A stretch of 64,000 nucleotides of DNA from assembly GCF_000755245.1 (NCBI RefSeq), contig NZ_BBMP01000007.1, positions 186,001 to 250,000 on the forward strand, given 5' to 3'. Source of the DNA: Halococcus sediminicola. GTDB taxonomy: Archaea; Halobacteriota; Halobacteria; Halobacteriales; Halococcaceae. The position numbers and the translations under genes were made by a program. The notes beneath the pieces were generated by a model that saw nothing but the letters and a program-made list of their open reading frames with translations, ran no database searches and had not been told where the DNA came from. Below, in pieces: positions 7,153-53,642 of the stretch (position 1 is the first letter of the stretch; each line of letters begins with the position of its first letter).

Positions 7153-7722
7153 ATGAGCACACGGGACGCCACCGACGACACCACCGAAACGCACCCGGAC
7201 GCCGACCAGCAGCTCGTCGCGGTCGACGAGAACGACGAGCCGGAGGGGATCGTCCAGCGCCTCGACGCCCACACCGGTGACGGCGTTCGCCACCGCGCGT
7301 TCACCGCGATGTTGTTCGACGAGGCGGGCAACCTCCTGCTCGCCCAGCGCAGCCCCGAGAAACGCCTCTGGGACACCGGCTGGGACGGCACCGTCGCCTC
7401 CCACCCCCGCGAGGGCGAGGACCAACTCGACGCCACGCGCAAGCGCCTCGACGAGGAACTCGGCATCTCGCCCGATCAGTACGACGATCTCCGGGCGACC
7501 GACCGTTTCGAGTACAAGCGCTACTACTACGACGAGGGCATCGAATGGGAGGTCTGTACGGTTCTCAAAGCGACCCTCTCGGACACGACGCTCGACCCCG
7601 ACGACAGCGAAGTTGCCGGGGTCCTCTGGGTGCCCTACGAGCGCCTCCACGAACACCCGCGCTGGTACCGCCAGCTCGACTTCTGTCCGTGGTTCGAGAT
7701 CGCCATGCGCCGCGACTTCTAA
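7153..7722 (+). CDS. idi: Isopentenyl-diphosphate delta-isomerase, type I (Nudix fold)
   Basis: A 189-residue enzyme that interconverts isopentenyl and dimethylallyl diphosphate for archaeal lipid and carotenoid synthesis. The family signature is clear: metal-site His in RHRAFTAML, WDTGWDGTVASHP, the helix DATRKRLDEELGI, and the Glu of EWEVC. The position of the catalytic cysteine of bacterial and eukaryotic type I enzymes (NSVCGHP in E. coli, Cys67) is Ala here (GTVASHP). The start is the ATG at 7153; the longer open frame upstream is only the shadow of lrp. It is followed by the first copy of a structured 3' element. Confidence 0.92.
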   Translation: MSTRDATDDTTETHPDADQQLVAVDENDEPEGIVQRLDAHTGDGVRHRAFTAMLFDEAGNLLLAQRSPEKRLWDTGWDGTVASHPREGEDQLDATRKRLDEELGISPDQYDDLRATDRFEYKRYYYDEGIEWEVCTVLKATLSDTTLDPDDSEVAGVLWVPYERLHEHPRWYRQLDFCPWFEIAMRRDF

Positions 7723-7730
7723 CACGGACC

Positions 7731-7965
7731 TTTTTACTGCGGGGGTGCGCTCCCTCGCGTTGTTCGGTCGCGCACCCCCGCTTGCAAAAAGCTACGCTAA
7801 AAACTCCCGCTCGCTCCCTCCGGTCGCTCACGGTGAACCGCGCTCGTTCCACTCGCGCGGACACCGATGCACCGCTTCCGCACAGCACCGCCGAAGCCCT
7901 CGCTCCCGACGGTCGCTCGCCCTTCATCCGCCGAGGCCCGCACCGCGAGCCGCGAGCGCCGCCCA
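7731..7965 (+). repeat. Structured 3' intergenic element, copy A (after idi)
   Basis: TTTTTA is followed by a 12-bp perfect stem (GCGGGGGTGCGC at 7739-7750 pairing with 7770-7781). Then come blocks shared with a second copy after osmC: CTAAAAACTCCCGCTCGC (7797-7814), CGCGCGGACAC (7854-7864), CAGCACCGCCGAAGCCCT (within 7881-7902), TCGCCCTTCATCCGCC (7917-7932) and GCACCGCG. The stem begins 16 nt after the idi stop. No open frame here looks like a gene. The rest of the gap to 8050 holds G+C-rich sequence with nothing recognisable. Confidence 0.7.
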
Positions 7966-8050
7966 CAATCGCTCCGCGACCGCAACCGTGGGCCGCGGCC
8001 GCAGTCGCCAGACCCCAACCGACTTGACTCACCGGTACCATACGTCACCA

Positions 8051-52964: not shown

Positions 52965-53241
52965 AAGGTGCGTGGCGGCGCGGCCGCCGCGGTGCGGACC
53001 TGGCGGATGAAGGGCGAGGCGCGCCGGCACGAGCGGAGCGAGTGCCGCGACCGAAGGGAGCGCGCCGAGGGCTTCGGCGGTGCTGTGTGGTTGGCGGTTG
53101 CGGTGTGAAACAGTCGTGTCCGCGCGAACGCAGTGAACGGGGTTCGCCGCGAGCGCCGAAGGCGCGAGCGGGAGTTTTTAGTCCAGGTTTTTGGTCGGGG
53201 GTTGAGCGCGCGAAGCGCGCGATGCCCCCGTCTAAAAAGTG
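52965..53241 (-). repeat. Structured 3' intergenic element, copy B (after osmC)
   Basis: Read on the minus strand it starts 16 nt after the osmC stop. It has TTTTTA, then a CGGGGG/CCCCCG stem (53196-53201 with 53225-53230) enclosing a GCGCGC-GAA-GCGCGC hairpin. Blocks identical to copy A follow in the same order: at 53164-53181, 53116-53126, 53066-53087 and 53002-53017. Between those blocks the two copies diverge and differ in length (about 180 versus 136 nt). The rest of the 52867-53246 gap has nothing recognisable. Confidence 0.7.
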
Positions 53242-53246
53242 GGTGC

Positions 53247-53642
53247 TTAGAACGCGCCGCTCTCGACCGAGATGTCGGCGTGGAGGTCCTCGCGCAGCGC
53301 CGAGTGGACGTGACAGATCTCCTCGCCGCGTTCGACGAGTTCGTCTTCCTCGCCGCTGATGTCGGCCTCGACACGCATGTCGAAGCGGATGGCTTCGAGG
53401 TCGTCGTCATCGTCGAGGTCGGCCTCGGCGTCGATCTCGATCTTCCCGAGGTCGTCGTGGTCGCGCTGCTGACCGGCGACGCGGAAGGCCGGGATGTAGC
53501 AGGAGGCGTAGTCGGCGACGAGCGTTTCGTTCGGGTCTGGTCCCGTCTCGTTGGTGGCGTCGATGGTGAGTTCGAAGTCACCGAGTCGACTGGTAGTGGC
53601 GAATCCCTCTTCGGACGTGCTGCTGACGGTGATGTCTGCCAT
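53247..53642 (-). CDS. OsmC-family protein
   Basis: A 131-residue OsmC/Ohr-fold protein. The two redox cysteines are in VADYASCYIPAF and EEICHVHSAL. Such proteins reduce organic hydroperoxides using dithiols. The start is the ATG at 53642. Directly after the stop lies copy B of the structured element, which may influence its mRNA end. Confidence 0.9.
   Translation of the reverse strand: MADITVSSTSEEGFATTSRLGDFELTIDATNETGPDPNETLVADYASCYIPAFRVAGQQRDHDDLGKIEIDAEADLDDDDDLEAIRFDMRVEADISGEEDELVERGEEICHVHSALREDLHADISVESGAF

Follow-up and report, generated by a model that had tools for sequence, protein, structure and literature searches.

The DNA behind the gene for isopentenyl-diphosphate delta-isomerase (idi) in Halococcus sediminicola raises the question of what a structured, apparently non-coding element does at the end of a gene. 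The initial annotation described a two-copy element following idi and an osmC-like gene, and read it either as a selected transcript-end module or as a mobile element that targets gene ends. The stretch analysed, called here the window, comprises 64,000 nucleotides and corresponds to contig positions 186001–250000 of a 3.76 Mb draft genome (the source genome).

Copies in the window

Both copies are real as described, and every named block is shared exactly between them (Table 1). The sequence CAGCACCGCCGAAGCCCT has two exact matches in the window, where chance would give 0.1 hits even at three or fewer mismatches. A spacer of exactly 16 nt had been reported between stop codon and hairpin; this is the distance to the C-G5 hairpin base in copy B, whereas in copy A it is 17 nt. 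The offset between stop codon and T tract is identical in the two copies (exactly 8 nt), and within the window a T5 close after a stop is found at these two genes alone. The name of the osmC-like gene is that of the initial annotation, and no NCBIfam match was found for it at E ≤ 1e-15.

The element extends past the blocks marked originally into an ACCGC-rich tail. It was said to code for no protein, and this holds, since the lengths of its M3 hairpin vary without a period of three and no conserved ORF is present; a conserved small protein was rejected because the hairpin lengths are not multiples of three. No Rfam match above the gathering threshold lies within the window.

Table 1. Parts of the two element copies and the stop codons before them (positions of the window)
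Feature	Positions	Strand	Remarks
idi stop codon	7720–7722	+	isopentenyl-diphosphate delta-isomerase, CDS 7153–7722
Copy A sense T5 tract	7731–7735	+	8 nt past idi stop
Copy A module M1	7731–7790	+	T tract, G5/C5 hairpin 7741–7779, A tract
Copy A twin T5 tracts	7786–7803	-	7786–7790 and 7799–7803, 8 nt apart
Copy A hairpin M2a	7807–7833	-	on minus-strand reading, immediately upstream of the twin T tracts
Copy A hairpin M2b	7838–7860	-	clade type I, CCGCGC...GCGCGG
Copy A hairpin M3	7893–7925	-	GAAG...CTTC base; minus-strand tandem G.A pairs
Copy A ACCGC-rich low-complexity tail	7930–8000	no strand	end approximate; from sequence inspection
osmC-like gene stop codon	53247–53249	-	CDS 53247–53642
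Copy B sense T5 tract	53234–53238	-	8 nt past osmC-like stop
Copy B module M1	53188–53238	-	
Copy B twin T5 tracts	53175–53192	+	53175–53179 and 53188–53192, 8 nt apart
Copy B hairpin M2a	53147–53172	+	
Copy B hairpin M2b	53119–53142	+	
Copy B hairpin M3	53009–53075	+	long nested form

Copy number and anatomy of the family

The family to which both copies belong numbers about 55–60 per Halococcus genome. Copy A as a BLAST query gave 50 matches at 40 sites of the source genome; BLAST combined with pattern searches, the latter run with reversed-pattern controls, gave 62 sites where one or more modules could be recognised and 41 with all three.

The element is a multi-hairpin unit of about 230 nt. 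In the orientation of the gene, a stop codon or tRNA end is followed after 3–11 nt by T5-6 (mostly then AC), hairpin M1, A5, an 8-nt linker, a second A5, hairpins M2a and M2b, an ACCGC-rich spacer, M3 and an ACCGC-rich tail. M3 is bounded by GCACCGCCGAAGCCCT and GCCCTTCATCC; its conserved blocks are largely the arms of its base stem, and its foot on the opposite (bottom) strand is GGAT-GAAG. Past M3 on the right, GC-rich sequence follows, and an AT peak resembling a promoter is missing.

Read on the bottom strand, the two A tracts form twin T tracts. These are found in 82 of the 88 M1 copies, and their spacing is 8 nt in 77 of the 82, with variable linker sequence. In inverted form the linker repeats the bases preceding the T tract, matching at 233 positions where shuffled pairing gives 163 (maximum 188 in 2000 shuffles), so that the M1 palindrome reaches past the T tract. 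M2a is followed on the bottom strand by TTTTTAG within about 5 nt.

Several variants were observed. In L031, L037, L048, L087 and L094 the stop codon itself lies inside the T-tract inverted repeat (TGAACC TTTTT ... AAAAA GGTTCATC or near variants). A second repeat of two hairpins, TTCGAGAGAGC..GCTCTCTCGTCATCACGAAAGGCGC..GCGCCTTTCGAACGAC, is nested within element hairpin loops at L054, L063, L065, L067 and L095 of the source genome and at L126, L135 and L136 of G157, a congener with a single-contig assembly; TCTGCTCRCGGGC..GCACGG and CAGGAGAGCAAACTCTCCTGAGCCTGCGGTCGC are further units nested in such loops. A variant M2, AAAAGCCTC(G/C)TC...CTCGGCCCGCTC, substitutes the usual M2 in L047, L049 and L057 and also occurs at the idi site of two other genomes, G073 and G044 (L104, L106). 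In L084 and L035, M2 is split by GTGTTCTCGTGAACGACCGCAAGGAGTGAACGAGA and an extra hairpin, possibly a separate mobile hairpin unit.

Placement at transcript ends

At most callable-gene sites of both genomes examined, a same-strand stop codon lies 3–11 nt before the T tract, and across copies the orientation is that of the preceding gene, as had been noted for the first two. In the source genome three copies lie 6–8 nt after tRNA-Pro, tRNA-Leu and tRNA-Arg genes, which indicates that the transcript 3' end matters and not the translation stop as such. A T5 lies within 40 nt past the stop in 31 of 37 element genes; among 300 other genes the number is 12, and among 23 opposite-strand gene ends beside elements it is 0. 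A few copies (e.g. L038, L050, L058) adjoin gene 5' ends, with M1 away from the stop.

Of an estimated 3000+ genes, no more than about 60 carry the element. These host genes are core genes, including those for EF-2, thermosome, aconitase, citrate synthase, succinate dehydrogenase (SdhA), PCNA, RadA, DNA polymerase B (PolB), CDC48, HemA and ferredoxin.

The folding strand

The strand that folds is the antisense (bottom) strand relative to the preceding gene. As RNA, it has the lower predicted energy in 92 of 92 copies (-103.2 vs -75.9 kcal/mol). Palindrome mismatches on the gene's strand are T.C in 178 cases and G.A in 10, a ratio of 17.8 where composition predicts 2.1, and these T.C mismatches are tandem G.A on the bottom strand. 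The core CTC-xy-NNN-y'x'-TCG is paired 196 times and unpaired 74 times within elements, and is never paired in the opposite orientation; the loop of the paired core is TNC in 162 of the 196, that is, GNA on the bottom strand.

Among equal-length M3 hairpins the non-Watson-Crick pairs of the bottom strand are G.U (12) and A.C (2), and the tandem G.A positions are substituted almost solely by Watson-Crick pairs. Compensatory stem changes are present. Covariation scores 0.447, compared with 0.165 when letters are shuffled and 0.09 or less for slid partners; the structure was read from the same sequences, which gives it an advantage over the slid versions in the number of paired cells, but would not give one this large in double changes. 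M1 has the same bottom-strand bias, although on either strand it lies past the T tracts.

A sense-strand 3'-UTR structure was rejected, the top strand being less stable in all 92 copies and the mismatch types favouring the bottom strand. For idi and osmC in particular, a classical 3'-UTR structure fails because on the gene's strand the T tract precedes the hairpins and every strand-specific folding mark belongs to the opposite strand.

Conservation and homogenisation in Halococcus

In G157, 20 of 28 callable-gene copies follow orthologs of genes that bear a copy in the source genome. The osmC copy is present in 10 of 10 Halococcus genomes examined and the idi copy in 8 of 10, one of the eight consisting of M3 and a degenerate remnant. 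The idi element is absent in G249 and G255, where the sites look rearranged and no clean empty site was found.

At the sequence level the copies behave differently. M3 identity is 52% between orthologous sites versus 50% between unrelated sites, where the proteins are 87% identical, and pairing is kept. M2b type I occurs 29–36 times per genome in four genomes and 2–8 times in the other six; type II occurs 9–24 times in four genomes and 0–2 times in the other six; in two Halococcus genomes neither type is present in numbers. The split of types between the two main clades (Fisher p about 1e-28) is descriptive only, the copies not being independent. Stems change fast but keep their pairing, and the homogenisation of copies takes place within each clade. 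The positions are inherited, but a module has been exchanged at nearly all of them within a clade.

These data bear on the suggestion of a mobile element that targets gene ends. Conservation at orthologous sites weakens it, but the homogenisation throughout a clade shows that sequence does spread between copies. Gene conversion is probably the route of the clade-wide homogenisation. Strong gene conversion is known from Haloferax, a polyploid haloarchaeon (PMC8223754), so that conversion is plausible for the Halococcus element.

Distribution beyond Halococcus

The framework is present in numbers in Halococcus morrhuae and H. thailandensis. In a search of 292 genomes of the class, each of eight Halococcus genomes had 28–46 occurrences of the M3 pattern, a single genome from another family had five, and every remaining genome had 0–1; the reversed control gave zero. 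Among 116 genomes of the class from 45 genera, the twin-A linker was found in 39 genomes and 20 genera, with none for the control, and the order T tract, hairpin, A5, linker, A5 follows genes or tRNAs in Halorhabdus, Halobacterium, Haloarcula, Haloferax and others. Counting CTCGCTTCGCTCG in relatives is uninformative, its reversed control being nearly the same word. Judged from these patterns, M3 is nearly specific to Halococcus and the frame of M1 and linker is widespread in haloarchaea.

Gene tails are repeated beside M1 in Natrinema, Halorientalis, Natronococcus, Haloferax and Natronolimnohabitans, where the final ~30–100 nt of the neighbouring convergent gene form a direct repeat that flanks the unit. 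These gene-tail repeats (L229, L224, L209, L212, L238, L239, L192) look as if terminator and tail had been tandem-duplicated.

A putative two-way terminator

The anatomy of the element, its strand asymmetry and covariation, its fixed spacing and placement and its conservation at orthologous genes are shown; taken together, they make a strand-asymmetric two-way transcription terminator, a fence at the gene end, the best reading, with a probability of about one half. The reading of a selected transcript-end module made in the initial annotation is borne out by the many copies, the spacing from the stop, the orientation and the compensatory stem changes.

The sense transcript would be stopped at T5-6, 3–11 nt past the stop codon or tRNA end and ahead of the hairpins. 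RNA entering from downstream, either from a convergent gene or as antisense RNA from the next promoter, would fold M3, M2b and M2a and would next meet two U5 tracts exactly 8 nt apart, an arrangement resembling an FttA-type site. The main role would be fencing off transcription from downstream. According to gene calls that are home-made and approximate, the next gene is co-directional at about 35 of the 62 sites and convergent at about 27; at the former, the bottom-strand RNA would have to be a putative antisense RNA. We infer that transcription is actually terminated here, that FttA could be used for it, and that genes may be protected from antisense transcription.

The T-rich tract past the gene end on the coding strand is that of archaeal U-tract terminators (Haloferax T5C; aCPSF1/FttA), which the element resembles in having T5-6 just past gene ends. 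In Haloferax volcanii, T5C gives ~95% termination in vivo (PMC7237163). In Methanococcus maripaludis, aCPSF1 binds efficiently only to RNA with two U4+ tracts, and two-tract reporters terminate best (PMC8716108). Two U tracts of at least four residues, the rule from M. maripaludis, are present on the bottom strand of the element, and this pair is likened to the twin U tracts of aCPSF1/FttA termination; the bottom-strand 18-mer UUUUUAGUCCAGGUUUUU is a candidate aCPSF1 site. Unlike the known archaeal terminators, the element places its tract within a 230-nt repeat of several hairpins, keeps the twin spacing fixed and is structured on the antisense side, and its termination is predicted.

Bacterial bidirectional intrinsic terminators (A tract, hairpin, T tract) share with the element a palindrome that serves both strands, but the order in M1 is inverted (T tract, hairpin, A tract). 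The GC hairpin followed by a U tract of bacterial terminators is absent from the gene's strand and present on the opposite strand only, at M2a.

Confidence in the two-way terminator is limited to one half chiefly by the strand bias of M1, which lies past the T tracts on either strand and where a terminator has no need of it. The co-directional sites, the missing AT peak right of M3, the copies beside gene 5' ends and the small share of genes that carry the element also weigh against this reading. The more specific proposal, that the fence acts mainly against antisense transcription at orthologous core genes throughout the genus, with its sequence homogenised genome-wide by concerted evolution, is offered tentatively, the odds being somewhat against it.

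Alternative explanations

A DNA family resembling REP/BIME, whose one-strand ssDNA hairpins are spread by an enzyme or by gene conversion and are harmless after genes, is the strongest alternative, though an unlikely one. The element shares with REP/BIME/REPIN sequences and their TnpA-REP (RAYT) partners the dispersed multicopy intergenic palindromes, the mismatches in stems and homogenisation within the genome; the exchangeable hairpin cassettes, the nested two-hairpin inserts and the clade-wide M2b types at nearly all sites also fit. GNA triloops with tandem G.A are a known stable form of DNA hairpin, which counts for the same explanation. Unlike those families, the element has a fixed distance from the stop (3–11 nt), a fixed orientation and sites retained across the genus, and G073 and G044, both with full element sets, lack a Y1 transposase (Pfam PF01797). 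In a 2018 survey archaea had IS200-type TnpA only, and class 2 TnpA was not seen (PMC6006769). A phage or plasmid origin was rejected: phages gave no match, and haloarchaeal plasmids gave only two weak ones.

It is rather improbable that each element encodes an antisense structured small RNA of ~200 nt, read off the bottom strand with its end at the twin T tracts. The stable covarying bottom-strand fold, the conserved M3 blocks and the terminator-like end would suit such an RNA, but the promoter-like AT peak expected right of M3 is missing, no Rfam family is recognised in the window, and the M3 blocks are explained largely as base-stem arms.

Still less probable is that structure is not selected at all and that complementarity is maintained by template-switch correction of quasi-palindromes in replication. 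The linker inverts the bases before the T tract, in some copies including the stop codon, hairpins turn over completely between orthologs, and gene tails are tandem-duplicated in other genera, all of which accords with template switching. Such correction should, however, erase mismatches, whereas the tandem T.C stay put and are replaced only by Watson-Crick pairs; the asymmetry of G.U and A.C and the 8-nt spacing are also left unexplained.

A site acting at the DNA level is improbable to the same degree, be it one that organises the chromosome through a cruciform or an array of bound proteins, or one that blocks the polymerase on the template strand. M1, between convergent T tracts, is perhaps never transcribed yet is structured, and DNA folding parameters also prefer the bottom strand (91 of 92 copies), but the G.U wobbles and T tracts indicate RNA and the placement at transcript ends is strict.

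Significance

A search for haloarchaeal intergenic repeats and for the element sequences found no published description in the library covered, which does not by itself establish novelty. Accounts of termination in archaea usually present it as a bare T tract. The family offers a natural library of about 60 aligned putative terminators in each genome of at least ten species: the stems are free to vary as long as they pair, the twin U spacing is 8 nt and one strand is structured. With such a library, the roles of RNA structure and of twin U tracts in FttA-type termination, as well as archaeal antisense control, would become directly testable. That a single module is exchanged clade-wide while its sites stay fixed is also unusual among cases of concerted evolution in regulatory DNA.
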